Shown in pieces: positions 8,966-25,535 of a DNA stretch of 25,535 nucleotides. Below the pieces are notes generated by a model. That model ran no database searches. It saw only the letters and a program-made list of their open reading frames with translations, and was not told the origin of the DNA. Each line of letters starts with the position of its first letter. Position 1 is the stretch's first letter. Made by a program: the position numbers and the translations under genes. The stretch is from a virus, in the IMG/VR virus record IMGVR_UViG_3300027973_000202, positions 1-25,535 of that record. The stretch is one strand, 5' to 3'.

Positions 8966-9383
8966 TTTGCTGGTTCTCCGATCTTTTTAGTACGGCACTC
9001 CAAGCAAGTACATCTCCAAATGGATCTGTCATTGGGGTTACTCCGACTACTTCAAATACGGTTGGGGTATCATTAGGGTAATCTAATTCTGTCCAAATAT
9101 TTTCGCCATTCCCTGTTCTAATATTTGTTATTTTTTCTCTAATTGATAGCTTTGAGTTTGTTCTAACTTCTATAACTTGAACGTTTTCGTATTTAGTTCC
9201 AAGAACTTGCCTGTCACCACTTCGTGCTGTGGCTGTGTTACTAATAACGCCTTTTGCATAACAAGAAACTGTTTTTATATAGCTCCACTCTTTTTTGATT
9301 GCCCCAGTAGATACGTCTTGAGAGTCCGATTGCTTGTAGACATCCATAAGCATAGAAAACGAAGCATCTACTACTCGAAACAT
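8955..9383 (-). CDS. Putative head-closure (stopper) protein
   Basis: This 142-residue protein directly follows the adaptor candidate, the position of the SPP1 gp16-like stopper. Its composition is mostly beta strands, including VSCYAKGVISNTATARSGDRQV, KYENVQVIEVRTNSKL and VFEVVGVTPMTDPFGDVLAWSAVLKR. This fits the small beta-barrel of head-closure proteins, which seal the portal channel after packaging. The start shares a junction with the upstream stop (9383). No terminator or promoter is visible around it, so it is expressed with the connector operon. Confidence 0.6.
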   Translation of the reverse strand: MFRVVDASFSMLMDVYKQSDSQDVSTGAIKKEWSYIKTVSCYAKGVISNTATARSGDRQVLGTKYENVQVIEVRTNSKLSIREKITNIRTGNGENIWTELDYPNDTPTVFEVVGVTPMTDPFGDVLAWSAVLKRSENQQIGI

Positions 9384-11949: not shown

Positions 11950-13260
11950 TTATTTAAATAGTTCGTTTACGGAACCGAGGAAAGAACCGTTCCATTTTGA
12001 TTTTTGTATTACTACTTCCTGAGACCCGCCAAGGTCTGAGGACTTCTTAATTGCAGTCTCTGATTCTACTGCGTCGACACGCTTTTCTACATTATCAATC
12101 GTGCTCTTGATGTTCTCAACTGTTTTGCTGAGTTCTGTGTGTTTATCTGCCAACTCTGAGATTTGAGTCTCAACGCTCTTGCTGAAAGCTTCAACTGTTT
12201 CTTTAATAGTTGTTACCTGTGCAGCATTAGCTTCTGAAGCTTTGCTTAGAGTATCTGAGAAAAAGCCTTTTAAATCACCTAACATTTTTGCAAAATCAGG
12301 TTCATCAACAACGACCTCTGAGACGTCTGTTGCTTTTTCAACGGTTTCGGCAGAAGTATCTGCTACTACATCTTCTGTAACAGCTTTTTCAACTACTGCA
12401 TCTTGTGCAGGTGCTGAAACTTCTACTAAAGCAGTTTCTTCAACTGCTAATGTTTCTGTGTTTTCTGACACTTCATTACCTCCTTCTGCGTTTGCCTGTT
12501 TTGCAATTGTTTGTCTTTCAGGCAACGTAAATCTTGAATGCTTATATGCATCAAGAATCTTTTCTATTTCTTTAGCTTTGTTTACATCATTGGTTTCTAC
12601 CCAGCCAATTAAACTTGCTGGCTTACCAGTTACTGGAGAATTAAATTCTTTTTCTTTTGACATAAAAACAGAATCGCTTTCTTCACAATAAAAAATATTT
12701 TCTGTTGAAACTTCTGTTGCAATTCCTTTAAAAATTAATTGACCATTCATTTTGGAAATTGAGATGATATTACATAATTCGTTTGCTGGAGAATCTACGA
12801 CTGATAACTCTAGTAAAGAATAGTTTTTAATAAAACGAACTGATTGACCTGTAGATTTATTAACCTCGTTGTCGGACTCAATAATTTTTCCACCAATTGA
12901 AAATCCTGAAAGGGTACCGTCTAAAACCTTTTCCCATGTATCTTGTGCGCCTTTAGAGATATATGCATCTACATAAACTCCGTTATAGAATTCTCCGCTT
13001 TTTGCATCAAAGTATGTTTCTGGCTTAAATGAAACCATTTTGCCAACTGCGTTTGATCCATGCATTTCTCTGATGTTGCCACGGAAGCTTTCAAATGCTT
13101 TTAGACTTGCTTCTGAGGTTACGACATCGTTTGTTTGATCTACATTGTCTAGTGTAGCAAAGCCAGATACAGTTCTCTTTTCACGGTTTACTTTTGTGAA
13201 TGGAACTGATAGGCTGATATTATCGCCATTGCTGGACCAATAAGATTTTTCAATATTCAT
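11950..13260 (-). CDS. Prohead maturation protease fused to scaffold
   Basis: Residues 20-170 form a U35/S78-type (XkdF-like) prohead serine protease. VNREKRTVSGFATLDNVDQTNDVV opens the fold; HG at 67-68 holds the likely catalytic His, S121 in FSIGG the likely nucleophile, and ELSVVDSPAN near 151-160 closes it. Residues 170-250 hold an unassigned insert. From about 255 to the end, an Ala/Val/Glu-rich segment and a long coiled coil (ISELADKHTELSKTVENIKS) look like a scaffold (delta) domain. The protease would cut capsid and scaffold during head maturation. The start at 13260 has a TAAAAT box seven bases upstream and little Shine-Dalgarno, suggesting a leaderless mRNA. Confidence 0.88.
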   Translation of the reverse strand: MNIEKSYWSSNGDNISLSVPFTKVNREKRTVSGFATLDNVDQTNDVVTSEASLKAFESFRGNIREMHGSNAVGKMVSFKPETYFDAKSGEFYNGVYVDAYISKGAQDTWEKVLDGTLSGFSIGGKIIESDNEVNKSTGQSVRFIKNYSLLELSVVDSPANELCNIISISKMNGQLIFKGIATEVSTENIFYCEESDSVFMSKEKEFNSPVTGKPASLIGWVETNDVNKAKEIEKILDAYKHSRFTLPERQTIAKQANAEGGNEVSENTETLAVEETALVEVSAPAQDAVVEKAVTEDVVADTSAETVEKATDVSEVVVDEPDFAKMLGDLKGFFSDTLSKASEANAAQVTTIKETVEAFSKSVETQISELADKHTELSKTVENIKSTIDNVEKRVDAVESETAIKKSSDLGGSQEVVIQKSKWNGSFLGSVNELFK

Positions 13261-13314: not shown

Positions 13315-14898
13315 TTAAGCTGTGACTCTACCCTCACCTTTTGGATTTCTGGCTTCCCCAGAACTATCTGGTGAATTGGCCGATCTTTCCTGAGTTCTAT
13401 TTCTGGTATTTAATGCCTGAGCCTTGATTTCGGCTGCTTGTGCCTGCAAATCAACAACCTCATCTCCACCGTCCATGGGTATCATACCCTTTCTAATTCT
13501 AACTTCATTGGGGGTAATTACCTGCATTCTTAAATACCTTTCATCAATTTTAGATTGTGTATCTTCGTCCGTTAAAGTCAATTCATTAAATTTAAGCATT
13601 AATGCATCTGTTTTTTCAGAAATAATTCTATTTATTTTCTTTTCTAAAATATCTTGAGCTGGTCTACAAACTTGTTCTTTAAACATTTTATCTGCATCTC
13701 TTGCTGAAGCTAGGCTAACTCCTTCTGGAACTCCAATTTTATTTACTGGAACTCTATGCGCCAAAAGAATTTCATCTCTATTCGCTTTTCGATATACATT
13801 AAATGAAGACTCTTGTGGGTTTGCCTCAATAGGTTCCATTTTAAATTCAACTTTAGAGTCAGATGTGTCTGCTGGAAGTGGGACGTAAAGCGATCTATGG
13901 TTCTTTCCTTTTAAACCAACTTGGAAAAATTCTAGTAATTTACGTTCGGATTCTGGTGAAAGCTTTGCGCCCTTTACTGTAATTATATATCTTGGAACCG
14001 CTTTATTTTCAAAATAATCTAAGTTATATTTTCCAGAAAATTCATTTCCTGCCATTGCAGTTTGTGCAGCAATTATATCTGGGATTCCGTAGTAATTGTT
14101 CATTGGCGTATATTTCTTTAAATGAATAACTTCATTTGGACGATCTTCTGCTCCAGAAATTGGGTTAGGAGTTTCTTGATCTGCAAAGTTTCTAAAGTAT
14201 ACTGCCTTGCCATAAAGAAGTTGTATAAATCCGTCACGAAGTCTACGTACTCGCATTGTCTTGGATGGTATGTGTCCGATGTACCCAATATTACCAGACA
14301 CGGTTCTTCCAATTTCAATGTATCCATTGCCAGTAGCCTCTAAATCTGTATAAGCTTTTACTAATGTTTCTGTAAATGTTTCTTCTTCATTTGTTTCCTC
14401 TAGCCAATAATCTAAATCTTGACGAAGTTTATTTAATTTACGTCGAGCACGTTCTAATTGTTTTTTATCATTAATATTATCTAAAGCATCATTTGCTTTT
14501 TTTGTTTCTACAAAAGAGTATCCGAGTCCAACAATGTTAGCAACTTTTGCATTAATTGCTGAATAGTTGTAAGGTGATATCTCATAAATTTTTGAAAGAT
14601 ATTCTAAGTTATAGACTGGCTGAACAAGGTCAAACATTGCGTATCCAGTAACTGCTTGCTGCAATAGATTCTGCTGAGTTCCAGTTCCTTCTTGTCCTAT
14701 AAAACGCTTTTGAAACTCTCTAGATATTTTTCTACGAAATGTCGGGCTTAATCCATTAACTTTTTTTAACTCTTCGCCTTCAATGATAAATGGGTCATTA
14801 CTTAATACAACTTCTTTATTATTAAACTTTATCCAGTCTGCAGAATTTGATATGTCAATAGTTTCTGAGACACTAGGGTCTTCGTTCATAAACTCCAT
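13315..14898 (-). CDS. Portal protein
   Basis: This 527-residue portal resembles the PBSX/PF04860 class and would form the dodecameric gate for DNA entry and exit. Recognisable stretches: YEISPYNYSAINAKVANIVG (about 106-125), the crown/wing region ETLVKAYTDLEATGNGYIEIGR, IPSKTMRVRRLRDG, the VIHLKKYTPMNNYYGIPDI segment near 263-281, and a tunnel-loop-flanking region with HRVPVNKIGVPEG and ARDADKMFKEQV. Near the C-terminus, TPNEVRIRKGMIPMDGGD is a typical portal motif. The start directly abuts the upstream stop, and a CGGAGG-like ribosome-binding site lies about ten bases upstream. No terminase is visible next to it, which is unusual for this position. Confidence 0.92.
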   Translation of the reverse strand: MEFMNEDPSVSETIDISNSADWIKFNNKEVVLSNDPFIIEGEELKKVNGLSPTFRRKISREFQKRFIGQEGTGTQQNLLQQAVTGYAMFDLVQPVYNLEYLSKIYEISPYNYSAINAKVANIVGLGYSFVETKKANDALDNINDKKQLERARRKLNKLRQDLDYWLEETNEEETFTETLVKAYTDLEATGNGYIEIGRTVSGNIGYIGHIPSKTMRVRRLRDGFIQLLYGKAVYFRNFADQETPNPISGAEDRPNEVIHLKKYTPMNNYYGIPDIIAAQTAMAGNEFSGKYNLDYFENKAVPRYIITVKGAKLSPESERKLLEFFQVGLKGKNHRSLYVPLPADTSDSKVEFKMEPIEANPQESSFNVYRKANRDEILLAHRVPVNKIGVPEGVSLASARDADKMFKEQVCRPAQDILEKKINRIISEKTDALMLKFNELTLTDEDTQSKIDERYLRMQVITPNEVRIRKGMIPMDGGDEVVDLQAQAAEIKAQALNTRNRTQERSANSPDSSGEARNPKGEGRVTA

Positions 14899-15234
14899 TT
14901 ATTGTTTGCCTCCGCTTTTTAATGAATCCTTGTAAACGCCTATGTCAAGAGGATCTGGTGTTAGTCCCCATTCTAGTCTTTGTTTTTGATGCTGAAACTC
15001 TTCGTCATCAACTTTACGTCTACCTGATAAAAATTTAGGCTGTCCTTCGTGTATGCCATATGATCTTACTTCTCTTGCCAACAAATCCATCTTTGATCTG
15101 TTGCCTTTTTTAGCTGTTATTGATAAAAAGTTTCCATCGTCATCGCCAATCCATCTTCCGTCTGGCATCTCCCACACATAAATTCCTAGTGTAGTTTCCT
15201 CTATTACTTTTTGATTAATTCTTTTAATATCCAT
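14899..15234 (-). CDS. Conserved hypothetical protein upstream of portal (111 aa)
   Basis: This small protein opens the portal operon and ends exactly where the portal gene begins. YVWEMPDGRWIGDDDGNFLSI at 19-39, followed by RSYGIHEGQPKFLSGRRKVDDEEFQHQ and LTPDPLDIGVY, is a pattern I associate with short proteins beside terminase/portal genes in actinobacterial phages; their function is not known to me. Charge is mixed, with no signal peptide or membrane segment. The ATG at 15234 has a promoter -10 box nine bases upstream and no strong Shine-Dalgarno, so initiation may be near-leaderless. Confidence 0.7.
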   Translation of the reverse strand: MDIKRINQKVIEETTLGIYVWEMPDGRWIGDDDGNFLSITAKKGNRSKMDLLAREVRSYGIHEGQPKFLSGRRKVDDEEFQHQKQRLEWGLTPDPLDIGVYKDSLKSGGKQ

Positions 15235-15297: not shown

Positions 15298-17037
15298 TTA
15301 TGAATTTTGAATAACAATCCAGTCATTATTATATATTTCAGTAGATCCTTCTGTCACCGACATGGCAGATGCGGTAGAGGTATATACCGATCTTCCAGTA
15401 TATAAATTGTAATGAGTTATTGCCTTATTTTTATCTAAAGCATCCCTATATAGGGTTATATGCTGATATGAGCCTTTCTTGGACCCAGTGCTCTTATAAT
15501 TAAAGACTAGATCTCCAGAAACAGGTGCTTGAAAAACAATTACAATATGATTTAAATATCCTGAATTTAATACATTGGATATATTTGATTGTGCTGTTTT
15601 ATCTTCACCATTTACGTATATTTTAGATATATTAGTTTTTGATATAGACCCGTTATCCGCCCAGCTAAATTCTGTACCAGCAGATGATATTAATAAACTT
15701 TTTAATATACTGCTTGGGGTATAGAAAAACTCAATGCTATTTGTATCATATGGAAGATCTACCTTGAACCCTGAATTATTTGGGACCAATACTCCATTTA
15801 ATTTATTCATTGATAATATTGGATAAGCCTCTTTGCCAAGGCTATAATCTAGGTTATCTATTTTATAAACATAAGACGCTCCATTTTTAGAATAAGCTAT
15901 TTGCTCAGAGTAAAAATTTACTGATAATGAATAAAGTTTTGGAATATATCTAGAGGAGTCTGTTGAAGAAACTACTATTTTTAAATGAAAAAATCTTTGT
16001 TGGTTAAAATCTGAATACTTGTATTGAGGTATTGAATATCCGTTTTCGCATTGTTCATAAGACACTCCGTCTAGACTTGTATAAACAGAAATTCCAGAGC
16101 TACCGTCCCATTGAATTTTTGAAGAATCCATTGATATACCAGAAGGCATAGATATAATATCTTTTAAAATAACTTCTTTTGTTTCTAATAAATCTGTCTT
16201 AGATAATTGAATATATTCTTCTGACCTACCTAGCGTAAGATCCTCTGTTAAAAAATATTGCCAAGATTTATCTTTTGGATAATTATAAGTAAATGATGTT
16301 CTCATTCCATTGTCATAAATATTAAAAATTTCTCCATTATCTGGATACGCAATCTGTATTGGTAAAGTATTTTGATTACTTAGATAATGATCTTTAATTT
16401 GTTTTTCTGATAAAGAGTATCTATACACTGCTGGATTATCTATTAAAAACTCGTCTGCGCTATTTTGTGTAGGCCCAGACTTTAGTAAGACCTGTGTATT
16501 TTCAAAGGGAACGCCAGTTATTGTTTTGCTAATAGCCAAGTTCCCGTCTAAATATATTGATGCTGAATTTACTGAATATTTGCATACAACATAAATAGAC
16601 TTATTAGTTTCTGGAACTGTGTGCTCTAAAGTTTCGGTGCCAATAACAAATATAATATTGTTGTTTTGCCAAGCAATTCCAAGATCATTAGAAGAATCTA
16701 TAAAAATTGGAGTAAGGTTTGTAGAAGATATTTTTGGTAAAATCCAACACTCTAGCGTAAATTCATTGTCCGCTGTGTCTAGCGTTCCAAATCCTCCTCC
16801 TGCTGTTTGTGCGTAATAATCATTAATAATTGCAAACTGTATATTTGACAAGGAAGTAATTTTTGCTGAGTACTGGCCTCCAGAAACCATTGGCATTATC
16901 TTAGTTTGGCTTGGAAGGCTTCCCGTATACACTCCATTATTACCGCATCCAGAAATGTCTATTGCTGTAGCCGTAGAGTCATCTAGTTGCCAGAATCCAA
17001 TTGGATGGTCTTTTAATATTTTATGAGAGTATGACAT
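15298..17037 (-). CDS. Virion surface protein with LamG/jelly-roll domains
   Basis: This 579-residue protein appears to be built of three beta-sandwich parts. Residues 1-220 form a concanavalin A/LamG-like lectin domain: HPIGFWQLDD, then CGNNGVYTG, EFTLECWILP, SASIYLDGNLAISK, and ADEFLIDNPAVYRYSLSEKQI with the closing strand. Residues about 225-370 look discoidin-like (GISVYTSLDGVSYEQCENG, then RFFHLKIVVSSTDS). Residues about 390-570 hold another jelly-roll-like part (IYVNGEDKTAQ, LNHIVIVFQAP). Such proteins are usually tail-fibre, tail-tip or head-decoration proteins that bind surface glycans. It sits between the SDR gene and the portal operon. A TATAAT box six bases before the ATG and no Shine-Dalgarno suggest a leaderless mRNA. 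Confidence 0.8.
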   Translation of the reverse strand: MSYSHKILKDHPIGFWQLDDSTATAIDISGCGNNGVYTGSLPSQTKIMPMVSGGQYSAKITSLSNIQFAIINDYYAQTAGGGFGTLDTADNEFTLECWILPKISSTNLTPIFIDSSNDLGIAWQNNNIIFVIGTETLEHTVPETNKSIYVVCKYSVNSASIYLDGNLAISKTITGVPFENTQVLLKSGPTQNSADEFLIDNPAVYRYSLSEKQIKDHYLSNQNTLPIQIAYPDNGEIFNIYDNGMRTSFTYNYPKDKSWQYFLTEDLTLGRSEEYIQLSKTDLLETKEVILKDIISMPSGISMDSSKIQWDGSSGISVYTSLDGVSYEQCENGYSIPQYKYSDFNQQRFFHLKIVVSSTDSSRYIPKLYSLSVNFYSEQIAYSKNGASYVYKIDNLDYSLGKEAYPILSMNKLNGVLVPNNSGFKVDLPYDTNSIEFFYTPSSILKSLLISSAGTEFSWADNGSISKTNISKIYVNGEDKTAQSNISNVLNSGYLNHIVIVFQAPVSGDLVFNYKSTGSKKGSYQHITLYRDALDKNKAITHYNLYTGRSVYTSTASAMSVTEGSTEIYNNDWIVIQNS

Positions 17038-17043
17038 TTAAAA

Positions 17044-17072
17044 ATTATACCATCAATGTAGTTTAGTATCCA
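17044..17072 (-). promoter_or_regulatory. Putative leaderless promoter for the LamG protein
   Basis: Minus strand: TGGATA (17072-17067), 17-base spacer, perfect TATAAT (17049-17044), then six bases (TTTTAA) and the ATG at 17037. The expected start of transcription falls on the start codon. Confidence 0.55.
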
Positions 17073-17752
17073 CCAATGTGGAATGCTTGTCCAGTTAAAC
17101 TACTTGATTTTGGGTCAAGCAAAAGCTCTACAATATTGCATATGTCGTCAGATGTAAACACTGTTCGGTTAATAATTTGTGGGCCAGCAAATAGCTTAAA
17201 AGCCATGTCTGGTATGCCCTCTGTCATTGTTGATTTTATTGGGCCTGGTGATATGCAGTTTGGTCTGATAGATGTATTTTGTAATTTTTTTGCTAAAGAT
17301 TTTGTAAATCCATATACTGCATGCTTGCTTGCCCCATATATTGCAAAATCGGTTACTGAATGCGCTGATAGGCTTGCCATATTTATTATTGGTGTATGTT
17401 GTTTTTTGTCCATTAATGGTAAAAACACTTGACAAGAATTCATTGTTCCTATTACGTTTGTAGAAAATATTGATTCCATTTCGCTCTGTTCTATTGTTAG
17501 CCAGTCTACAAATGGGGTTTCTAGTATTCCAGCACAATTTATTAAAGCTTGTACTGTAATATTTTTTTCTTTTAAATCTTCAAATATTGGAGTTAAGGTA
17601 TTTTTTTGGCTTACGTCTGCTTGATAAGTTTTAAAGGATACATCGTTTTGAGGTATACCTCTTGATATGCCAATGACATCATATCCATTTTTAGAAAGCC
17701 TATTTGCTATTACATTCCCAATTCCCCTGCTCGATCCAGTTACTATAATCAT
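17063..17752 (-). CDS. Short-chain dehydrogenase/reductase (SDR)
   Basis: This 229-residue classical SDR is of normal length. The NAD(P)-binding glycine motif TGSSRGIG is at 5-12, NCAG at 72-75, and the catalytic residues are S127 (NMASLS), Y139 and K143 (YGASK). The PGPI turn at 169-172 and the C-terminal LTGQAFHIGGY, which resembles the FabG-like TG..i.vdGG end, are also present. It would oxidise or reduce a hydroxyl/carbonyl using NAD(P)(H); the substrate cannot be read from sequence. It is the last gene of the modification island and is joined to the upstream oxygenase by a TAATG overlap, so it may act on a sugar, lipid or product used by that module. SDR genes are uncommon within phage structural regions. 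Confidence 0.88.
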   Translation of the reverse strand: MIIVTGSSRGIGNVIANRLSKNGYDVIGISRGIPQNDVSFKTYQADVSQKNTLTPIFEDLKEKNITVQALINCAGILETPFVDWLTIEQSEMESIFSTNVIGTMNSCQVFLPLMDKKQHTPIINMASLSAHSVTDFAIYGASKHAVYGFTKSLAKKLQNTSIRPNCISPGPIKSTMTEGIPDMAFKLFAGPQIINRTVFTSDDICNIVELLLDPKSSSLTGQAFHIGGY

Positions 17753-18405
17753 TATTCTGTCCCGTCTGAGTAGTATGCGTTTTTTCTATTATGATACCAG
17801 TTTGGCAATGAATATCTTGTTCCGCTTGTTACCGCATCAACTTCGTGAACGTAAACAAAATTTGATGGGAAAAACAATAGGCTTCCAGCTTCTGGCTTCA
17901 TGTCAATATTACAATGCGGGAATCTTATGTTTCCACCTTCATAATCGTCATTTAAATAAAGAAGTGCCGATAAAACTCTACTGCTTATACCATGGTCTGA
18001 GTGGGCTGGTAGGAATCCGCTTTCTTTATATTTTAATAGGTGCATTGTTTTTTCTCTAGATTTAATATTTTTTTCAGCATATGGATATAATGAAAAATAA
18101 TGTTTTAATCCATCTTCTAACCCATTAAATAACTCAGAAGATATTTCGTGTTGTTCTTTATAAAAATAATCATTAACATCTATATCATTTGGCTTTGGTA
18201 AAAATTTTTGCCAACAGAATATTGTTTTTTCTTTATTGCCGTGATCATAGTCCCATGCTTGCCAAGGCTTTACTGATTGTGACCTATAGTCTTTTTGCAG
18301 GCTTCTTTTTTCTTCTAAAGACTCTATTTTATTAATTAGTCCATTGGGATCTTTTATAATATTTTTATAATACACAACGCCTAAAGCCAACTCTTGATAT
18401 TGCAT
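17752..18405 (-). CDS. 2OG-Fe(II) oxygenase, prolyl 4-hydroxylase-like (A)
   Basis: This is a 217-residue double-stranded beta-helix oxygenase. Iron ligands are visible as HSD (H135, D137) and a distal His at 187 (YVHEVD), with R197 (SGTRYSL) placed to bind the 2-oxoglutarate carboxylate. The strands SALLYLNDDYEGGNIRFP and PEAGSLLFFPSNFVYVH are typical of P4H-like enzymes. Such enzymes hydroxylate protein side chains (proline and others) using O2 and 2-oxoglutarate. I chose the ATG at 18405 because it overlaps the upstream stop as TAATG; a GTG at 18414 is an alternative. It shares the YLNDDYEGG signature with the next gene upstream, so the two are paralogues. Confidence 0.88.
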   Translation of the reverse strand: MQYQELALGVVYYKNIIKDPNGLINKIESLEEKRSLQKDYRSQSVKPWQAWDYDHGNKEKTIFCWQKFLPKPNDIDVNDYFYKEQHEISSELFNGLEDGLKHYFSLYPYAEKNIKSREKTMHLLKYKESGFLPAHSDHGISSRVLSALLYLNDDYEGGNIRFPHCNIDMKPEAGSLLFFPSNFVYVHEVDAVTSGTRYSLPNWYHNRKNAYYSDGTE

Positions 18406-18950
18406 TATTGGCACTCCCTAAAATCTGGGTCTACGAACTCTTGCTTGGTTGATTGCATATAGAGGGCTGTATACCTACTGCCAGAAGTAATTTCTTTAAC
18501 CCCATGAATATATTGATAATCATTTCCTGGGAAAAATATAGCAGAATACTTTTTGGCCTTTAAGGAAAATGCTTGTTTAGGGAAATATATCTCTCCGCCC
18601 TCGTACTCGTCATTTAAATAAATTACGGTGCTATATTCTATGAATGGTTCTTTTTCAATTGCGTCTATGTGAGGACTTCCACTTTGTCCTGGCTGCCACC
18701 ACGAGCCAAAAGCCTTAGTAACAATTACTTTGTCTTTTAAGTTAAAAAATTCTTTCTGAATGTGGTTTGCTCTTACTGAATATTTTTTAAGTATATCCAT
18801 CACCCTATTGTTATATGGGAAAGCAGTTCCGCCGTTTCTATCTTTATAGTATTCTGGATACGGGTTTATTTTTGACGGCGATTGCATCTCTTCCATAAGA
18901 GAAAATGCATCTTGTTCTGATATAAAATCTTCTACTATTTTTATTAACAT
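18405..18950 (-). CDS. 2OG-Fe(II) oxygenase, prolyl 4-hydroxylase-like (B)
   Basis: This 181-residue protein has all expected catalytic residues: H94 and D96 (PHID), distal H149 (YIHGVKE) and R159 (SGSRYTAL). The core YLNDEYEGGEIYFP at about 111-124 matches its neighbour. The N-terminus MLIKIVEDFISEQD starts like many P4H-type domains. No signal peptide is present, so it acts in the host cytoplasm. It starts in a TAATG overlap with the glycosyltransferase gene and ends in another TAATG with oxygenase A, with AAGGAG near its start. The adjacent glycosyltransferase suggests the hydroxyl it installs could be the acceptor; this is inference. Confidence 0.88.
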   Translation of the reverse strand: MLIKIVEDFISEQDAFSLMEEMQSPSKINPYPEYYKDRNGGTAFPYNNRVMDILKKYSVRANHIQKEFFNLKDKVIVTKAFGSWWQPGQSGSPHIDAIEKEPFIEYSTVIYLNDEYEGGEIYFPKQAFSLKAKKYSAIFFPGNDYQYIHGVKEITSGSRYTALYMQSTKQEFVDPDFRECQ

Positions 18951-19765
18951 TACCTGATCTCCTTAATCCTATCAAGATATCTTAATCCGCCCATTCTATC
19001 TATTTGAGACTGGCCAGTGTCGTAAGCAACATCGTTATCTTCAAACGGTAGCTGCATTAAATTTATATTAAAGTTTTTTTGAATTTCATTTGAATATTTT
19101 TCAATAAATTGATTATAGTTATGGGTTAAAGAAAATGGGGTATATTTATCCTCTACTGAATTTTTATTAATTGATATGTATTCGTCTGGGAAATTATAAA
19201 TATCTACGCCACTATTAATTAAATCTATTGAAATACTTTCTTCTTCTCCGCAGTATTTTAAGTGAGTTGGTTGATTTATTATTGCAAAATCTTCAGACAA
19301 TGCAAATATAAAATTTCTGTCTATATAATTTATTTTATTAAAATTTGCAGATGGTACTCTTTCTGGCTCTAGCATGAACCAATTTTTATTTTTTAAGGTA
19401 ACTGTAGAATTTCCAGATAAAATTGAGTTTTTGTTATTTTTTAAAAATTCAACTGCATGGATGTCCCAATCTTTAGCTAATGAAACATCGTCTCCAATTT
19501 GCATATAATATTTTTTATTCAGTGACTTAAATGCATCCCGCTTATATTCAATTGGGCTTTTAATAGAGTCCCACGTAACATATTTATAAACAATTGATGC
19601 ATAAAAATCTGGTTGGTCTAGGGATCTAGTTCTGTCTACACTATTTTGATCAATAATGTAAAAATATAACATATTTTTTTGACTAGATTTGTCTATAATT
19701 TCAGATACAGTTTTAAATAAATTTTTATTTTGATAGCTGTAAATGCATATACCAATATTTTCCAT
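18950..19765 (-). CDS. GT60/PF11397-like polypeptide GlcNAc-transferase
   Basis: This 271-residue GT-A-fold glycosyltransferase opens with GICIYSYQ at 4-11. It then has a KYYMQIGDDVSLAKDWD block at about 85-101, where the family shows a metal-binding DSH-type motif followed by WD. A second family hallmark is at 172-195: CGEEESISIDLINSGVDIYNFP, matching the GEE...l...GyD...P pattern of PF11397. Characterised GT60 members transfer GlcNAc to hydroxyproline of Skp1 (Dictyostelium Gnt1) or to Thr of mucins (trypanosomes). The start at 19765 is chosen because it overlaps the previous stop as TAATG; an earlier ATG at 19783 lies inside the conserved WIP codons of the upstream gene. The acceptor here is unknown. 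Confidence 0.75.
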   Translation of the reverse strand: MENIGICIYSYQNKNLFKTVSEIIDKSSQKNMLYFYIIDQNSVDRTRSLDQPDFYASIVYKYVTWDSIKSPIEYKRDAFKSLNKKYYMQIGDDVSLAKDWDIHAVEFLKNNKNSILSGNSTVTLKNKNWFMLEPERVPSANFNKINYIDRNFIFALSEDFAIINQPTHLKYCGEEESISIDLINSGVDIYNFPDEYISINKNSVEDKYTPFSLTHNYNQFIEKYSNEIQKNFNINLMQLPFEDNDVAYDTGQSQIDRMGGLRYLDRIKEIR

Positions 19766-20415
19766 TATTTGAATGGTATCCATTTCATAGATTTACTATT
19801 TCTAATCTCTCTAAACGGAATAATATCGTATGCAATTGTTACTCTTGCTTGGTCTTGTTGCCAATCTCCTCTAGCATGGGGGTAGCCAGTTTCGGAAACA
19901 ATTGCTCTATTATTTTTATTAATATTTTCAAATAAATCATTATTATTTTTATCTAGCTTATAGTATGTTATGGATGGCTCGGCATCTACACAATAGTAAC
20001 CGTGAAAATGTGGTATGCCAGTTCCTCCAAAATGATCATGAAGTTGCTCTGGATTTTTTACTGGATCAACCTTATTCTCGATAGACTTATAGTCAAAATT
20101 AAACCAGCCATGTATTACATAGTTTTCAAGATTAAAATCTATTTCATAATATTCACATGCTTTTTTTGTAAGATTTTTTAATTCACAATATAGGTTATAT
20201 ATCTCATCGTTTGGAAACATAAAAATATTATAATGATTTATTCCAATTTTTGTTGCTGCGCCTGGTAAATTTTTATATTTATCTAAAACCTCATTAGATA
20301 AATTTAAAGAATTTTCTTTAATAATTTCATCGTTTATTTTATATAAATATTTTGATAGTCCTTGCGTATCATTATTTAAATATGATTCAAAAAATTTTTG
20401 TGGTTTATTTAACAT
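19765..20415 (-). CDS. TIGR02466-like 2OG-Fe(II) oxygenase paralogue 1
   Basis: This is a putative 216-residue oxygenase. The HDH triad (126-128) followed by HFHGYYCVDAEPSITYYK, a distal His at 180 (YPHARGDW) and R191 (ARVTIAYDI) resemble the phage-borne TIGR02466 family of putative 2OG-Fe(II) oxygenases. It is a clear paralogue of the next gene (shared FFE.YL.ND start, GW...HDH..G, RVTIAYDI and a C-terminal KWIP). I selected the ATG at 20415, whose context overlaps the previous stop. The in-frame ATG at 20427 falls within the TGGATACC that encodes the upstream WIP motif and would add four residues absent from the paralogue. Substrate unknown. Confidence 0.78.
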   Translation of the reverse strand: MLNKPQKFFESYLNNDTQGLSKYLYKINDEIIKENSLNLSNEVLDKYKNLPGAATKIGINHYNIFMFPNDEIYNLYCELKNLTKKACEYYEIDFNLENYVIHGWFNFDYKSIENKVDPVKNPEQLHDHFGGTGIPHFHGYYCVDAEPSITYYKLDKNNNDLFENINKNNRAIVSETGYPHARGDWQQDQARVTIAYDIIPFREIRNSKSMKWIPFK

Positions 20416-21056
20416 ATTGGTATCCAATGTTGTGGATGTGCCTTGTTTGCTATTAAACTTTTTAATGGAACTATATCGTATGCAATTGTTACTCTAGGGC
20501 CTTCCCAGTCCCAAGATCCCATTGCATGTGGATGCCCCATTTCTGATATGATAAGCCTGTTGTCTTTATTGTGATTATCAACTTCTTTACCAAAAACTTT
20601 ATAATACGTTGTAGATGGCTCTGCTTTTACGCAATAGTACCCGTGAAAATATGGGGCATAGGGTCCGCCGTGATCGTGCCAGTCCAGCTTTCCTTTGTCG
20701 TTATAATTAATATTAAACCAGCCCTGAATCATGTACTGTTGTTTTTCAAAATCAACTTCATAATACTCACAAGCTTCTTTAACCATCTCTACAAGGTTTT
20801 TATATAGCTTATGTATTGATGGATGATAGAATTGAAAAACATTATATTCCCTCCATTTTATAGTAGAGACGCTGTCTGATGATAGCCAGTGATCTCTCTC
20901 TGTCACCTTTGTTATGCCAGTAAGATTTAAGTTTTCCATATTAGAATATTGGTTCTGTAAAAACTCTGCTAATTGTCCTAGGTCATTGTCTAAATATCTT
21001 TCAAAAAATTTATGCTCTTTACCTGTTGGCTGATTCATTTGCATATTATTAATCAT
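20409..21056 (-). CDS. TIGR02466-like 2OG-Fe(II) oxygenase paralogue 2
   Basis: This 215-residue protein carries HDH at 127-129 (LDWHDHGG), FHGYYCVKAEPSTTYYK, distal His residues at 175/177 (GHPHAMG) and R188 in PRVTIAYDIVP. These match the TIGR02466-type oxygenase core, in which two His/Asp ligands and a later His hold iron and an Arg holds 2-oxoglutarate. The N-terminus contains EHKFFERYLDND as in paralogue 1. It starts immediately after the stop of the 249-residue gene and overlaps paralogue 1. A 23-base stretch of its RVTIAYDI coding region is identical to paralogue 1. Substrate and product are not evident. Confidence 0.8.
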   Translation of the reverse strand: MINNMQMNQPTGKEHKFFERYLDNDLGQLAEFLQNQYSNMENLNLTGITKVTERDHWLSSDSVSTIKWREYNVFQFYHPSIHKLYKNLVEMVKEACEYYEVDFEKQQYMIQGWFNINYNDKGKLDWHDHGGPYAPYFHGYYCVKAEPSTTYYKVFGKEVDNHNKDNRLIISEMGHPHAMGSWDWEGPRVTIAYDIVPLKSLIANKAHPQHWIPIC

Positions 21057-21806
21057 TTATTTTCCCTTATACTGTTTGCGTTGCCATACTATATTTTTAT
21101 AATAGGCATAAATTGAAGATCTTCTTTTTTCATCTTTAATTTGATTCATTTCTTTCCCCTTGACCGAATAGTCTATCTCCAAAGCCCAATCTTCTCTTTT
21201 AATTGGAATCATCTGAAATAGAGGTGTTCCTTTAGGTATTATACCAATAAAGTTCCTTTTTAGGAAGAAGGATGTAAATACTGGTGTGTGCCATAAATCG
21301 GAGTCTATTATTCCGCTAAGGGTGGTAAATGGTAAATCATGTCTATTTAACGGATGGGTTATTAATAAAGAATATCCTTTTGGTGTTTCCGAATACCAGT
21401 TTACCTTCCAGCCAAAATGTAATGGGTGATGGTGTGTTGGGACTGGGACGTCTGTCATTAATCTTTTGTCTACTATCATGTTGTGCCCGTCCCAGGAAAG
21501 TACTGGAAACCCGTTTTTGTCTTGGTTAACATGAAGATCGTAGTCTAGGGTGTACATGTATCCAGAAGTTAATGCATCAAAAAATGGCATACATAGTTTT
21601 GTTGAAGCAGCACTTCCATCGGTTCCCCTATCATTAACTGGATGGAGCTTGCTAATATGGTTAGACTTATAAAATCTAGAAAGTTTTTTATACCATTCTG
21701 GAAGATGGTTTTTAGACTCTTCTGGTTCAGTAATTTTACCATTATTTAAATCGTCAGGATTAATTGAAAATCCTGGCGTAAATTTAATTACTAATTCTTT
21801 TTTCAT
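21057..21806 (-). CDS. Conserved phage protein of the KREDW family (249 aa)
   Basis: I cannot assign a function. The protein has features also seen in the 22509-23228 gene: LPEWYKKLSRFY near 34, a Cys-Met-Pro block (KLCMPFFDALTSGYM), and GWKVNWYSETPKGYSLLITHPLNR at about 132-155. It then has SGIIDSDLW and FIGIIPKGTPLFQMIPIKREDW near 190-210. The G-[IT]-x-KGTP...iP.KREDW pattern with many beta strands suggests a cupin-like or jelly-roll fold. I associate this pattern with small proteins of environmental phages. His-rich THHHPLHFGW at about 124-133 could bind metal. Location between oxygenase genes suggests a related role in modification; this is inference. Confidence 0.6.
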   Translation of the reverse strand: MKKELVIKFTPGFSINPDDLNNGKITEPEESKNHLPEWYKKLSRFYKSNHISKLHPVNDRGTDGSAASTKLCMPFFDALTSGYMYTLDYDLHVNQDKNGFPVLSWDGHNMIVDKRLMTDVPVPTHHHPLHFGWKVNWYSETPKGYSLLITHPLNRHDLPFTTLSGIIDSDLWHTPVFTSFFLKRNFIGIIPKGTPLFQMIPIKREDWALEIDYSVKGKEMNQIKDEKRRSSIYAYYKNIVWQRKQYKGK

Positions 21807-22512
21807 ATTCCCTTATAATTTTTTTAATAGTTTTTTTATCTGTGTTTATTTCTATATCAAATAAATATGTGCCTTTTTTTATTAAACCGCAAATGCTGTC
21901 TTCCATATGATTTTTAGAGTTTGTAAAATAAAAATCAACAAAGTTTGCTTCTTTTATTATAACATTTTCATTTGTTTTTGTAAAACAATCTTTTTTTTCA
22001 ATTATTTTTAGTGAAGGATTTTCTATATTACATTTAATTAAATATTGTATGTCCATGTCTAAAAACCAAGGAATATAAATTTTAAAAATTCTTTTAGAAA
22101 TTGCATTTTCATCTACAATATTATATTGATTTTCTGATGGATAGAACTGACGCAGCCAGCATTTATCGGTTGCATAAAAAAAACTATTAATTGGATTTGA
22201 TTTGAATACCCCCCTATGCCCTAGCAACGGATCAGCTATTTGAATTAATATATCCCCGTAGCTATAATATCTAATTGTTAAACTATTTTTAGAATTTTTT
22301 ATTATCTCTGGTGGGTTAGAAAAATGATGGGCGTACATGTTTACTGGTTTTAGAATTGATTGTTTATAGGCAGGATCAGATTTAACATATTCCCATTCTT
22401 TCCACTTTGGGAACAAATTAGACGTATTGCATATTTGTTCAAAAGTCATTGTTGACATTAGAGACCAAGATTCCGCTTCATAGGGCACTCTATTAACTGT
22501 CTTATTGGTCAT
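21784..22512 (-). CDS. Hypothetical protein, possible divergent member of the neighbouring family (242 aa)
   Basis: I do not recognise this protein. It is predicted to be mostly beta strand, with many aromatic residues (IRYYSYGDILIQIADPLLGH near 76-95, IYIPWFLDMDIQYLIKCNIE near 148-167). Its C-terminal GLIKKGTYLFDIEI resembles the GIIKQGTPIIQVIPF and GIIPKGTPLFQMIPI strands of the flanking genes, so it may be a far-diverged relative lacking the KREDW end. The N-terminal region mentions MTFEQICNTSNLFPKWKEW. It starts in an ATGA overlap with the upstream gene and overlaps the next by 23 bases, so the three are co-translated. It is very AT-rich. Confidence 0.55.
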   Translation of the reverse strand: MTNKTVNRVPYEAESWSLMSTMTFEQICNTSNLFPKWKEWEYVKSDPAYKQSILKPVNMYAHHFSNPPEIIKNSKNSLTIRYYSYGDILIQIADPLLGHRGVFKSNPINSFFYATDKCWLRQFYPSENQYNIVDENAISKRIFKIYIPWFLDMDIQYLIKCNIENPSLKIIEKKDCFTKTNENVIIKEANFVDFYFTNSKNHMEDSICGLIKKGTYLFDIEINTDKKTIKKIIREYEKRISN

Positions 22513-23228
22513 TTATATGTTTTCTTTTTCCAAAATTTTAGTCTATATCCATTTTGAAATACTGATCTAACCTGTAAAGTTTTTTCTTTTATTTTAGTAT
22601 CTGACTGCCTGTCATCGCTTATTGAGCTCTCCCAGTCTTCTCTTTTAAATGGTATTACTTGAATGATTGGAGTACCTTGTTTAATTATTCCCTTAAATCC
22701 TTTTTTAACAAAAAAAGATAGATATCCGTCTGACATATAGGTGTCTGTGTCTATCACTCCAGGGATAGATCTAATGGGAGAGTCCTCTGCATGCATTGGA
22801 GAAGTAAATAAACAACTGTGCCCTTCCTCTGTTTTAACTAACCACATTGGGTGAATTCTAATAATTTCTTCGTGAAAATAATCTGGGATGGGATATTTAG
22901 CCATTTGCTCTTTTAAATGACTTGAAAGAATATATTCCTTCTGCATTCCCATTATCTCAGATGTTACCTGTACCTTTATTCTATCTTCTGTTGCATCTAT
23001 AAATATATCCATTGGGCATTTTAAATAATATCCAAATGTCATTGAATCAAATATAGATTGGCATTTTTTAATTGTTAGCATCATTGTTCCGTTATGAATA
23101 TTTTGATCGTTATTTAAATAGCTTTCTTGATGCTTCCACCATTCTGGTATGCTGGACGCAACGCTAACTGGCTCTGGGAATGCTTTTTTATATAACCTAT
23201 ACTTTGGAATAAATTCTATTTTAATCAT
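22509..23228 (-). CDS. Conserved phage protein of the KREDW family (239 aa)
   Basis: This is a paralogue of the 21057-21806 gene. Shared blocks are IPEWWKHQESYLNND near the N-terminus, KKCQSIFDSMTFGYYLKCPMD, HPMWLVKTEEGHSCLFTSPMH, PGVIDTDTYMSDGYLSFFVKKG and GIIKQGTPIIQVIPFKREDW. Function unknown; strand-rich, cytosolic, no signal peptide. I chose the ATG at 23228, which overlaps the previous stop as ATGA and gives MIKIEFIP, equivalent to the start of the paralogue. An earlier ATG at 23243 is part of the TGGATACC codons of the upstream WIP motif. The repeated pairing of a KREDW gene with an oxygenase-like gene suggests the two families were duplicated together. Confidence 0.6.
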   Translation of the reverse strand: MIKIEFIPKYRLYKKAFPEPVSVASSIPEWWKHQESYLNNDQNIHNGTMMLTIKKCQSIFDSMTFGYYLKCPMDIFIDATEDRIKVQVTSEIMGMQKEYILSSHLKEQMAKYPIPDYFHEEIIRIHPMWLVKTEEGHSCLFTSPMHAEDSPIRSIPGVIDTDTYMSDGYLSFFVKKGFKGIIKQGTPIIQVIPFKREDWESSISDDRQSDTKIKEKTLQVRSVFQNGYRLKFWKKKTYK

Positions 23229-23788
23229 GCTAGTGGTATCCATTTTTGATAGTACTGCCTATATAGATATTCTAGAGGAGAGATATTAAATGATAGTATT
23301 GTCAAACCATCACTTATTTTTTTAAACAATATCTTTGATGATGAATCTAAAAATATTAATTGTCCAGGAATTAAATCAATTTTTTCATCATTTATAAAAA
23401 TTTGATCTTTATTGCAATCTATAACATAAAATCCCACAAATGTAGTTTTATAATTAGGGGCAAAATTTAGATATGTGTCTAATGTAATAGTTTCTTTTTT
23501 AACTATATTGCCAAGTAAATAAAAATAATTTCTTTCAAAATTAACTCCGTTTTTAATGCAATATTCTTTTGTTAAATCAGATATTTCTTTATATAGAATA
23601 TGAATGTTTTTGTTATACATTGCAAAAAAGTTAAATGTTTTATAATCAATTAAAGAAACTTTTTTAGGTTTAAACCCTAGCTTAATTCCTGGATTAAATT
23701 TATAAACATATTCGTGCATCTGAGAGATCATTTTATTATACTCGGAAAGCATGGTGTTGTTATTAATTGAATTAATATTTTTTATCAT
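23225..23788 (-). CDS. Catalytically degenerate oxygenase paralogue (187 aa)
   Basis: Aligned by eye, this is a third member of the TIGR02466-like group. IHILYKEISDLTKEYCIKNGVNFE parallels IHKLYKNLVEMVKEACEYYEVDFE, LDTYLNFAPNYKTTFVGFYVI parallels the HDH region, and SFNISPLEYLY...KWIPLA parallels AYDIVPLKSL...HWIPIC. The HDH triad is replaced (YLN), the distal His block is replaced by DSSSK, and the 2-oxoglutarate Arg by Gly/Leu. It therefore should not bind iron or 2-oxoglutarate. It may be a structural or regulatory partner, or a binding module. The frame is intact, so it is not an obvious pseudogene. It overlaps the upstream gene by 17 bases. Confidence 0.65.
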   Translation of the reverse strand: MIKNINSINNNTMLSEYNKMISQMHEYVYKFNPGIKLGFKPKKVSLIDYKTFNFFAMYNKNIHILYKEISDLTKEYCIKNGVNFERNYFYLLGNIVKKETITLDTYLNFAPNYKTTFVGFYVIDCNKDQIFINDEKIDLIPGQLIFLDSSSKILFKKISDGLTILSFNISPLEYLYRQYYQKWIPLA

Positions 23789-24419
23789 TTGGCTCCCAAA
23801 TGCTCATAGAGTGAAATAAGGCTGGAAATATCGGATCTTTGTATATGACTAATTCTGCTGGCATATTTATTTCAGGAAGTTCCCCAGGTGTCATGCCAAC
23901 CTTAACTATTTTTTCAATTTTATCTTTGTTTAAATTAAACCTTTTTTTAGTTGCTGATGCTATGAGGGAAGATCCGCTTAATGCTACAGCCTGTGTACCT
24001 TGTGTATATCCTGGGCCTAGTCTTGGTAAAATGTTAAAAAATGTACACCATATTGGATATCCAATTAAAGCTAATGATTCTATGTACTTTTTCTTTCGAT
24101 GTATTGGGCTAGTGTAGAATCTATCTGTTATTGCAGTATAGTGATCTTTGTCATATCCGTCTATAATTATTGTAGCCCAAGATGCTGGATAATCGTTGTT
24201 AATAAAATAAGACATAACAATTGTGCCAGACTCATTATCATCATTTTTATAAAGACATTCTATGGCTTGAGAATTCCATTTATCAGTAAGCACTGTATAT
24301 TGTGCCCAAGTACCTTTTATGTACTGTGGATACCTTCTAAATTTAGGTACAGGCTTACCTTTAAAATACCTAACTCCAGAAATTCCCATTAAGCGTAATT
24401 TCTTTACCTTTTTAAACAA
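23772..24419 (-). CDS. Hypothetical protein, weakly GNAT-like (215 aa)
   Basis: I have no firm identity. The N-terminus is strongly basic (FKKVKKLRLMG, then YFKGKPVPKFRRYPQYIKG). The middle (WATIIIDGYDKDHYTAITDRFYTSPIHRKKKYIESLALIG, about 96-135) looks like strand plus FYTSPIHRKKK, reminiscent of the GNAT FV.PEyRgkGig acetyl-CoA loop, but the Gly pattern is not right, so the call is tentative. A hydrophobic helix-like stretch follows. The start given is TTG at 24419 with AGGA six bases upstream; ATG at 24389 is the alternative. It lies 15 bases after the stop of the Fn3/Hint protein, in the same frame, and is the first gene of the accessory island. Confidence 0.45.
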   Translation of the reverse strand: MFKKVKKLRLMGISGVRYFKGKPVPKFRRYPQYIKGTWAQYTVLTDKWNSQAIECLYKNDDNESGTIVMSYFINNDYPASWATIIIDGYDKDHYTAITDRFYTSPIHRKKKYIESLALIGYPIWCTFFNILPRLGPGYTQGTQAVALSGSSLIASATKKRFNLNKDKIEKIVKVGMTPGELPEINMPAELVIYKDPIFPALFHSMSIWEPNDKKY

Positions 24420-24434
24420 ATTAATTCCTGACTG

Positions 24435-25535
24435 CTAGGCTTGGTCTTGAGAATCTCTCCATTTTTGATACATTGCATCTAGTTTATCTGAAAATGTCTC
24501 ATCGCTTGATAGCAATGCATTTTCATCTAGTGCTGCGTTATAAGAGTCGTGAACTAAAGCGTTATCTGTAAAAAATACGTCATAAGGTTCAACGTTTATA
24601 GAAATTAATAACTCTTTTTGTGTAGTTACTTTATAGTCTGTAATTTCTTTCCAGTCATTTTCGCTTGGTGAAAAAATTAAATCTGTTTCTAATACGCTTG
24701 ATGATGGTTGGAATTGAATCTGTCCGTCTCTTTTTATTAAAATAAAGTGCTGTGCAGAATATTTATTTCCATTAATTACAACAGCTCCATCGTCAGAAAT
24801 TCTTGCTGCCATTGCAACAATAGTAGTTTCGGCTGGGGATATGTTTGCGCTATTAACAGACCAATTTTGTAAATATTCTACTATTGCTGTATTTGAAACA
24901 TCTATTCCCTCGATATTAGCAGAGTATAAAACGTCGCCAACGCTTAGGTTGTGTGCAAGAATTAATCCTTCTGGCACCTTTGATTTAATAACTGTTTCTG
25001 CTCCAACCGATTTTGGAGTAAAGCCAAATGGTGTAAAACCAAATGGTGTGAATCCAAATGGTGTAAAGCCAAATGGTGTAAATCCAAATGGTGTAAATCC
25101 AAATGGGCTAAAGCTAAATGGTGTTGTAGTAACTGAGTTTGAACTTCCGCTGTATGATGAAAAACCATTATCATTTTGAGCCCTTACTCTAACAGTCTGG
25201 GCTTCATTTCCGTTTTCTGATAGGTTAGCGGTAAATGTACTAGAGTTATATGACGTAACATCATTTTCATGATCAATTAATCCATATCCAGTAATTGCTT
25301 TTCCACCATTATTTCCTGGGGCTGACCAAGAAACAGAGTTTGTTTCTGCTCCATTATTTGAAAGACTTGGAGCGCTTGGTGTTTGTGGAACTGTTGTTGC
25401 TGTTATTGAATTACTTGCGTCTGACGGCACAGAATTACCAACTGCGTTTGTAGCTATAACTGTAAATGTATAACTAGTTCCAGATTGTAAACCTTGTACC
25501 GTAATAGGAGAAGAAGATCCAGAAGCAGTATAACT
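24435..25535 (-). CDS. Fibronectin III / pentapeptide-repeat / Hint-like virion protein (5' end beyond window)
   Basis: The frame is open to the right edge, so the N-terminus is missing; 366 residues are visible, and an apparent GTG start at 25430 is internal. Domain order: end of one Fn3 domain (SGTSYTFTVIATNAVGNSVPS), a complete Fn3 domain (PSAPSLSNNGAETNSVSW... to SNSVTTT), then a run of FTPFG pentapeptides, and finally a Hint/intein-like domain of about 155 residues. Its end EPYDVFFTDNALVHDS resembles an intein C-terminus. A short helical tail of about 35 residues follows. Fn3 arrays decorate tails or capsids and bind host surfaces. It precedes the modification island, which makes it a candidate target of those enzymes. 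Confidence 0.85.
   Translation of the reverse strand, partial: SYTASGSSSPITVQGLQSGTSYTFTVIATNAVGNSVPSDASNSITATTVPQTPSAPSLSNNGAETNSVSWSAPGNNGGKAITGYGLIDHENDVTSYNSSTFTANLSENGNEAQTVRVRAQNDNGFSSYSGSSNSVTTTPFSFSPFGFTPFGFTPFGFTPFGFTPFGFTPFGFTPKSVGAETVIKSKVPEGLILAHNLSVGDVLYSANIEGIDVSNTAIVEYLQNWSVNSANISPAETTIVAMAARISDDGAVVINGNKYSAQHFILIKRDGQIQFQPSSSVLETDLIFSPSENDWKEITDYKVTTQKELLISINVEPYDVFFTDNALVHDSYNAALDENALLSSDETFSDKLDAMYQKWRDSQDQA
24546..25010 (-). other. Hint / intein-like domain lacking the usual Cys1 and terminal Asn
   Basis: Within the surface protein, block A-like SVGAETVI and LSVGDVLYS align with the intein start C-L-x-G-D-T and the VGD.v.s strand. Block B-like YSAQHFILIKRDG matches T..H....dG, and the end VEPYDVFFTDNALVHDS matches the F/G blocks, with penultimate His, Asp in place of Asn, and Ser as the following residue. 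Ser replaces the usual Cys at position 1. No endonuclease is present. It may be a degenerate or altered-chemistry Hint domain. Confidence 0.7.
25021..25125 (-). repeat. 15-bp tandem repeat, seven units, encoding FTPFG-type pentapeptides
   Basis: Seven consecutive 15-base units, with the last two imperfect (GGGCTA and AAGCTA variants), read on the plus strand as aaNccaaatggtgta. On the coding strand they give a Phe-Thr-Pro-Phe-Gly run between the Fn3 and Hint-like domains. The even third-position variation with a constant peptide indicates selection on the protein. Confidence 0.9.

Follow-up and report, generated by a model that had tools for sequence, protein, structure and literature searches.

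The window analysed here, the 25,535 bases of IMG/VR record IMGVR_UViG_3300027973_000202, holds a virion region of a lake bacteriophage, read on the minus strand, in which we identified an enzyme combination that is unusual for a phage. The final five genes ahead of a LamG-domain gene (17063-20427, minus strand) encode a candidate oxygenase (OxE), a GT60-like glycosyltransferase (GT), two oxygenases resembling prolyl 4-hydroxylases (P4Ha and P4Hb, together P4H) and a short-chain dehydrogenase/reductase (SDR). A first-pass annotation had read these five consecutive genes as a two-step hydroxylation and glycosylation system. All five were found as minus-strand open reading frames (ORFs), with mutual overlaps of 1-19 bases; the earlier gene list had overlooked a second candidate oxygenase (OxF), three genes for DUF6065-type proteins, a degenerate oxygenase paralogue (orfJ) and the repeat protein at the head of the run (orfL). 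Its interpretation overall is partly supported.

We tentatively propose that these genes together tailor proteins of the phage particle and fall into two sets that are able to lie apart; we consider this plausible but hold it with reserve. In set A, OxF and OxE would hydroxylate a fibre- or decoration-like protein with fibronectin type III (FnIII) domains and FGF[ST]P-type units that is encoded directly upstream, and the likely site in the repeat unit would be Pro (or Phe, or Ser/Thr). Set B would comprise the DUF6065-type proteins, GT, P4Ha and P4Hb; here the P4H-like enzymes would act as protein hydroxylases and the GT60-like one, should it be active, would add a sugar to the hydroxyl so made or to Ser/Thr. 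The two sets form a single run ahead of the portal gene in the window and may meet on the same protein; in other phages of the group set B lies elsewhere in the genome. Tailoring of virion proteins is the best-supported reading on three grounds: the position of the genes in the virion region, the likeness of the oxygenases to protein hydroxylases and that of GT to protein glycosyltransferases. We infer a protein substrate that is part of the virion, with the repeat as its site, and an active GT. Judged from sequence, the FGF[ST]P protein is the most likely target of OxE and OxF.

Glycosyltransferase and oxygenases

GT (18950-19783, minus strand; 277 amino acids) scores 18.8 bits against PF11397, below the cut-off of 21 and over residues 12-57 only. 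Its relatives were collected from IMG/VR with an eight-sequence alignment as the query, and the best 80 of 90 were used. Among 45 aligned relatives, 19 match PF11397 at an E value of 0.01 or better and two (L264 and L222) are true PF11397 proteins. A profile of the GT subfamily (32 members) aligned to five GT60-type phage proteins with an hhalign probability of 98.3% and E 1.4e-14; the four of these that were checked against PF11397 (all but L366) pass it. The homology of GT to GT60 is solid.

The structural model of GT has a mean predicted local distance difference test score (pLDDT) of 91.2. The first 29 solved entries that it matches are all polypeptide GalNAc-transferases (Z 16.7-19.3, root-mean-square deviation 2.9-3.5 over 219-239 residues), led by GalNAc-T2 (Z 19.3, 3.3, 235 residues); these are followed by chondroitin polymerase (Z 16.6) and, lower, the lysyl hydroxylase LH3 (Z 15.6). 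The predicted fold is thus of the GT-A type and closest to protein O-glycosyltransferases. GT60 is itself related to the polypeptide GalNAc-transferases. Among the predicted structures of BFVD, an uncharacterised phage protein gives the closest of all models (29% identity, E 4.5e-27), and the nearest matches with a name are entries of uncultured phage called ‘Glycosyltransferase, GlcNAc’ (E 2e-14, TMq 0.63, 19% identity). Profile and fold agree with the placement of the enzyme near GT60, and not in an unrelated family, an outcome that the first-pass annotation had named as refuting; its second refuting condition, a lack of co-occurrence in related phages, did not come true either.

The first-pass annotation had also seen both hallmark blocks of GT60 in GT. 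The strings QIGDD..WD and GEEES..GVD..P are present, but QIGDD is not the GT60 motif: all five GT60-type phage proteins have DSH at this place, within Q[VIFC]DSHT, and GT has G97-D98-D99. Because DSH (D-x-D/H) is absent from it, we file GT as GT60-like and not as a GT60 member. True PF11397 (GT60) genes with DSH were observed in four viral contigs (L361 7345-8307, L372 8531-9469, L264 7323-8192 and L222 9634-10587). Those of L361 and L372 lie within one gene of DUF6065, between DUF6065 genes in L361 and one gene after in L372, and by eye the surroundings of both are tail regions. G043 (78546-80124) and G045 (12475-13143) carry one or two extra, weaker GT-type matches in addition to the main GT, and in L083 a tetrapyrrole-methylase-type gene (8747-9457; PF00590, 73 bits) sits between GT and P4H.

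A search with the single GT sequence found no relative in annotated phages or in the PDB, and a profile search of the PDB was likewise empty. In bacterial and archaeal genomes, 72 pattern matches were obtained and none was a close relative; the GT profile also had no match in five reference phages. These empty searches say little because the GT family is divergent.

The two P4H-like oxygenases depend on 2-oxoglutarate (2OG) and iron in the families that they resemble, and the first-pass reading of them, with intact HxD...H...R, holds. P4Hb (17752-18414, minus strand; 220 amino acids; H138, D140, H190, R200) passes PF13640 with 60.8 bits against a cut-off of 27. P4Ha (18405-18950, minus strand; 181 amino acids; H94, D96, H149, R159) alone has no Pfam match, and a profile of its family (15 sequences) matches prolyl 3-hydroxylase 1 (E 5e-11) and the prolyl 4-hydroxylase 3itq (E 1e-7) in the PDB. 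The best PDB matches of the P4Hb profile (16 sequences) are the prolyl 4-hydroxylase chains 3itq and 5hv0, followed by prolyl 3-hydroxylase 1, PKHD-type hydroxylases and Egl nine homolog 1. The HxD..H ligands are invariant in the alignments of P4Hb (n=16) and P4Ha (n=15), and the 2OG-binding Arg is found in all P4Ha sequences and all but one of the P4Hb sequences (Lys in L147). By sequence, both are P4H-like oxygenases with intact iron ligands that resemble prolyl hydroxylases. The assignment of the last gene to the SDR family is likewise upheld: it encodes a FabG-like oxidoreductase of 229 amino acids (17063-17752, minus strand; PF13561, E 8e-38).

OxE (19765-20427, minus strand; 220 amino acids) and its paralogue OxF (20409-21056, minus strand) are more remote. 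The earlier label of OxE as TIGR02466-like stands only indirectly, through PF13759. OxE has no Pfam or NCBIfam match at E 1, TIGR02466 is absent among its NCBIfam matches, and PF13759 was found in none of 41 members of the OxE/OxF family at E 0.1. The cyanophage P-SSM2 ORF at 50173-51012 (PSSM2_057) both passes PF13759 and matches the profile of the 41 OxE/OxF relatives, in which HxH (H130-D131-H132 in OxE), H184 and R195 are conserved. With this ORF as the intermediate, we consider OxE and OxF to be remote PF13759-type 2OG-Fe(II) oxygenases. A search with the OxE sequence alone found nothing in annotated phages. The close relatives L007 and L008 keep OxF without OxE; OxE may therefore be dispensable. 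A third paralogue, orfJ (23225-23788, minus strand), aligns with OxE/OxF (hhalign 97.7%, E 2e-12), and of the 24 aligned members of its family that have a residue at the position of HxH, none shows a His. We predict it to be a pseudo-oxygenase paralogue that is kept in the run.

Gene sets, repeat protein and genome neighbourhood

The co-occurrence of P4H and GT genes in related phages, which the first-pass annotation had named as a check, is extensive. A P4H gene lies at most four genes from GT in 79 of the 80 loci and a DUF6065-type gene (a label that takes in orfH-type proteins, described below) in 75, the loci holding 61 distinct GT proteins; they come from related phages, and the counts are uncorrected for ancestry and are not independent events. 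The gene directly before GT is DUF6065-type in 38 loci and OxE/OxF in 38 (in four it is off the locus), and the gene directly after it is P4H in 67, OxE/OxF in seven and unassigned in six. Against two diverged relatives, dN/dS is 0.06-0.27 for GT, P4Ha, P4Hb and SDR (dS being partly saturated and OxE left out), with 0.21 (L007) and 0.19 (L115) for GT and 0.06-0.11 for the P4H genes. These four genes are under purifying selection. The five-gene set is not a product of chance, since the GT-P4H pair recurs over 80 loci and dN/dS is low.

In a second group of contigs, three DUF6065 genes, GT and P4H follow one another without adjoining OxE/OxF, away from the portal gene and often beside a carbamoyltransferase gene. 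Contigs G009 and G011, which were compared in part, have a common replication-type gene order, judged by eye from gene length and sequence start; this suggests that both belong to one broad group of phages in which the set has two alternative positions. We searched for GT in the whole of 16 long OxE/OxF contigs chosen for their length and found it in nine: all eight contigs of at least 85 kb and one of the eight shorter ones. The seven without GT measure 66-82 kb and may be fragments. Contig G037, too, was found to encode GT. The notion that GT is confined to a subset of OxE/OxF phages was rejected as an artefact of the ~16-kb loci, as GT appears elsewhere in all tested contigs of at least 85 kb once these are searched whole. 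Seven of the eight large contigs with both GT and OxE/OxF have a repeat protein before OxE/OxF; G034 does not.

The repeat protein of the window, orfL (24435-25535, minus strand), is the candidate target of OxE/OxF. It consists of an FnIII-like part, six FGFTP units (25014-25103) and a Hint-like C-terminal part; its 5' end lies past the window, and close relatives have ~430 amino acids. The fn3 domain scores 39.3 bits in the relative from L009 and 16.6 bits, under the cut-off of 25, in the part within the window. orfL matches minor tail and virion structural PHROGs (E 3e-5 and 5e-5). The six FGFTP units vary at synonymous sites only, and the peptide is therefore probably under selection. In its C-terminal part no Pfam Hint match was found, and the Hint call was made by eye. 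Among 93 distinct repeat proteins (L183-L284), FnIII-FGF[ST]P proteins tend by eye to end in a Hint- or intein-like part; in many relatives this part starts with Cys and ends with HN, and in the lineage of the window it has Ser and HD. Self-cleavage or cross-linking of a virion repeat protein is possible.

Among the best 80 of 97 OxE loci, 70 encode upstream of OxE/OxF a protein in which F-x-F-[STAV]-P occurs three times or more, directly adjoining in 45. In five of the other ten the genes start at most 1.5 kb from the locus end, and five show no such protein (L044, L089-L091 and L095); in L095 the first gene is orfJ. Counted by the 52 distinct first oxygenases, 45 have a repeat protein, four lie near a locus end and three have none. 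When repeat DNA was scanned for without regard to the enzymes, 112 repeat proteins were obtained from 102 loci, of which proteins 86 have an OxE/OxF, P4H, DUF6065-type or GT gene within eight genes downstream; a further 21 lack a tailoring gene but lie at most 4 kb from the locus end, and five are without any. The FGF[ST]P repeat thus goes with OxE/OxF, and its link to GT is loose.

From the right end of the window, the gene order is orfL, orfK, orfJ, DUF6065(i), orfH, DUF6065(g), OxF, OxE and GT, followed by P4Ha, P4Hb, SDR, LamG, orf111 and portal. From orfL to LamG all gaps are at most 25 bases and nine of the 12 junctions overlap, so that the 12-gene run from orfL to SDR is likely, on gene spacing, to be one operon. 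A small precursor peptide within the run was considered and dropped because the genes overlap or abut. The remaining genes, all on the minus strand, are orfK (23772-24419; 215 amino acids), which has no family match; the gene of the virion-region LamG protein (15298-17037; 579 amino acids; PF13385, 49.4 bits); orf111 (14899-15234; phrog_9394, E 3e-35), which is conserved directly before the portal gene; and the portal gene (13315-14898). The window contains no tRNA and no Rfam match that reaches the gathering score. Its capsid protein shares 59% identity with the capsid proteins of phages of Streptomyces such as Faust (Stanwilliamsviridae), and we infer an actinobacterial host.

The DUF6065-type proteins are encoded in tandem (21057-23243). 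DUF6065(i) (22509-23243, minus strand; phrog_7084, E 1e-41) and DUF6065(g) (21057-21806, minus strand; phrog_7084, E 7e-38) score 20.0 and 15.7 bits against PF19541, below its cut-off of 26.6; a protein of a related cassette in L390 scores 96.4. Between them, orfH (21784-22512, minus strand) has no family match of its own and is a divergent DUF6065-type protein in a family-to-family comparison (hhalign 85.9%, E 5e-6, 79 columns). The model of DUF6065(g) (pLDDT 85.7) has a moderate dUTPase match (Foldseek E 6e-4, Z 9.4), and DUF6065 looks like a dUTPase-like fold. A likeness to dUTPase motifs was also seen by eye, and only the fold match is a test. A DUF6065 profile had no match in the PDB. DUF6065 proteins could act on nucleotides or could be structural partners. 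Of the 50 annotated records in which homologues were found, 48 are named for haloarchaeal hosts or as halophages, and DUF6065 is very common in viral contigs, with at least 590 relatives and tandem groups. In L383, L390, L391 and L392, four to eight P4H-like genes surround one DUF6065-labelled gene; in L383 and L390 the P4H-like group stands beside a Hint-labelled protein, and L390 ends in a collagen-like G-x-y protein.

Possible substrates and activity of the proposed tailoring enzymes

Several observations weigh against the tailoring of virion proteins, beginning with the relatedness of the loci counted above. OxE and OxF lack a direct match to any 2OG family or PDB entry, and their comparison with P4H profiles gave no profile match; they are therefore not simply further P4Hs. 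FGF[ST]PF DNA occurs in five of 24 contigs chosen for a GT that is not beside a repeat protein, and of the seven such contigs of at least 100 kb, four have the strict repeat motif and three do not (none of the five reference phages has it). The repeat therefore cannot be the only target of set B, and the idea of it as the sole GT target is weakened. Set B is frequently near a carbamoyltransferase gene, also in G037. DUF6065 adjoins a thymidylate synthetase gene in halovirus HSTV-2, and this neighbour and the dUTPase-type fold together point to nucleotides. Finally, D/E-x-D/H stands at the metal motif in only four of 45 GT family members (L112, L115, L264 and L222). With GDD in place of the DSH of GT60, and with the motif mostly lost in the family, GT may be inactive or use another chemistry.

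One alternative is that GT has become a pseudoenzyme and, as a scaffold derived from GT60, holds the target peptide for P4H, so that only hydroxylation takes place. The loss of DSH in most of the family, in which W71-D72, W106-D107, G179, H221 and Y223 are kept in 41-44 of 45 members, would fit such a scaffold, and the predicted pseudo-oxygenase orfJ indicates that altered paralogues are kept in this run. On the other side, the closest relatives of GT stay acidic at the metal motif (GDD, DGD and EDD at 81%, 69% and 61% identity, respectively), and D98 is found in 25 of 45 members. The putative metal-binding histidine H221 remains in 43 of 45; the window protein has E180-E182, and Glu occupies these three places in 31, 28 and 37 of 45. 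Purifying selection on GT fits an active enzyme and a pseudoenzyme alike. We regard the scaffold as unlikely, although it retains an appreciable chance.

The chief rival as to substrate is DNA base hypermodification, in which the 2OG enzymes would oxidise a pyrimidine of DNA or of a nucleotide, GT and a carbamoyltransferase would decorate it and DUF6065 would act on nucleotides. The resemblance of the DUF6065 model to dUTPases points this way, as does the presence of a carbamoyltransferase in 11 of 12 contigs tested, in some beside the GT-P4H set (for example G037). Phage carbamoyltransferases for 5-hydroxymethylcytosine are described (PMC8670742), and in phage XacN1 a GT60-like gene adjoins a carbamoyl transferase gene. 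A homologue of thymidylate synthase or dCMP hydroxymethylase, however, was found in none of the 12 contigs (which may be incomplete), compared with nine of 14 control genomes. Tet_JBP matches P4Hb only at E 0.14, and the listed fold matches of GT are led by protein glycosyltransferases. To the P4Ha profile, a Tet-like PDB chain matches at E 0.008 (5e-11 for prolyl 3-hydroxylase 1). We judge modification of DNA to be unlikely.

The two-step protein O-glycosylation put forward in the first-pass annotation draws on the GT60 homology, the fold, the P4H likeness and the co-occurrence of the genes, and meets with the changed metal motif in the window and most of the family. In its specific form, 2OG oxygenases would hydroxylate the prolines of FGF[ST]P and a GT60-derived enzyme with a rebuilt metal site would glycosylate the hydroxyproline or the neighbouring Thr. 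The FGF[ST]PF repeat is the only obvious Pro/Thr-rich candidate target; the absence of the strict motif from three of the seven large contigs and the occurrence of GT-P4H elsewhere without adjoining OxE/OxF do not favour the first-pass interpretation. In this specific form the path seems rather improbable to us.

GT-A enzymes commonly act on surface glycans, and the set might instead be directed at the host surface, where alteration of a protein or glycan could, for instance, prevent superinfection or change a receptor. This would agree with the finding of set B outside the virion region, near an endolysin-like gene (by eye) and a carbamoyltransferase gene (tested for L138). The enzymes of the window are, however, encoded within the virion region, where they share a run of genes with LamG and portal, and the nearest solved GT folds act on polypeptides; a host target is in our view distinctly unlikely. 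That the 2OG enzymes are metabolic and draw down 2-oxoglutarate in infection whatever their specific substrate, as proposed for cyanophage 2OG oxygenases (PMC3037559), is very improbable, as that proposal rests on cyanobacterial NtcA signalling and leaves the recurring DUF6065-GT-P4H order and the link of OxE/OxF to the repeat unexplained.

Known systems and implications

The tailoring of virion proteins that we favour can be compared with several known systems. In Dictyostelium and Toxoplasma, Skp1 undergoes prolyl hydroxylation followed by the action of Gnt1, a GT60 enzyme (PMC6939170). This cytosolic pathway shares with the phage a prolyl-hydroxylase-like 2OG enzyme and a GT60-homologous transferase; the phage differs in its altered GT metal motif, its two P4H-like and two other oxygenases, its DUF6065 partners, the position of its genes in the virion region and its proposed candidate acceptor, the FGF[ST]P protein, no Skp1-like target being known here (no search aimed at one was made). 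A literal Skp1-type hydroxyproline-GlcNAc pathway in the phage is neither shown nor excluded. A motif similar to the repeat unit surrounds the modified proline of Skp1, a likeness to which we give no weight.

The earlier statement that no phage equivalent has been described needs a qualifier. Mimivirus, a viral equivalent, glycosylates hydroxylysine in collagen through R699, and glycans are reported on the major capsid protein in virions of mycobacteriophages Che8 and Rita (PMC9546862 and PMC11256854, respectively). Virus-encoded glycosylation of hydroxylated residues would be common to mimivirus, where it occurs in collagen, and the window phage, where it is proposed; mimivirus differs in the residue (hydroxylysine), in the target (collagen) and in being a eukaryotic virus. 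Another mimivirus protein, L230, is bifunctional. Che8 and Rita have in common with the window phage, if its host is indeed actinobacterial, GT genes in actinobacterial phages, and differ in that the excerpt on them mentions no hydroxylase step (PMC11256854).

In cyanophage Syn9 (NC_008296, 33000-46300), two tryptophan halogenases, a DUF6065 homologue and several 2OG oxygenases are encoded in one cluster. The DUF6065 homologue, gp43 (E 6e-13), lies between the halogenases and the 2OG oxygenases; the names of some neighbours (DNA endonuclease V, ferrochelatase) are possibly misleading. The cluster resembles the window in its several 2OG oxygenases and its DUF6065 homologue, and differs in the halogenases; the GT profile has no match in Syn9 in the same search in which contigs G009 and G011 were positive. 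The ‘Glycosyltransferase, GlcNAc’ proteins of uncultured phages have a predicted fold related to that of GT, but their identity to it is low, as given above. Viral prolyl 4-hydroxylase transcripts are mentioned in one source (PMC9611531). In the open-licence literature searched, we found no report of phage enzymes that hydroxylate virion proteins, whether as the sole modification or as a step ahead of glycosylation, no paper that combines phage, prolyl hydroxylase, glycosyltransferase and virion, and no mention of DUF6065.

Glycosylation of phage virions has already been reported in a few cases. What the present analysis contributes is a specific group of genes in which a short repeat, FGF[ST]P, stands as candidate site beside its candidate hydroxylases; it also connects DUF6065 with a dUTPase-like fold and with these enzymes. 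The targets of the many 2OG oxygenases of aquatic phages thereby become a testable question. If the two-step path were true, the phage particle would bear a glycosylated repeat stalk, a counterpart in a prokaryotic virus of hydroxyproline O-glycosylation.

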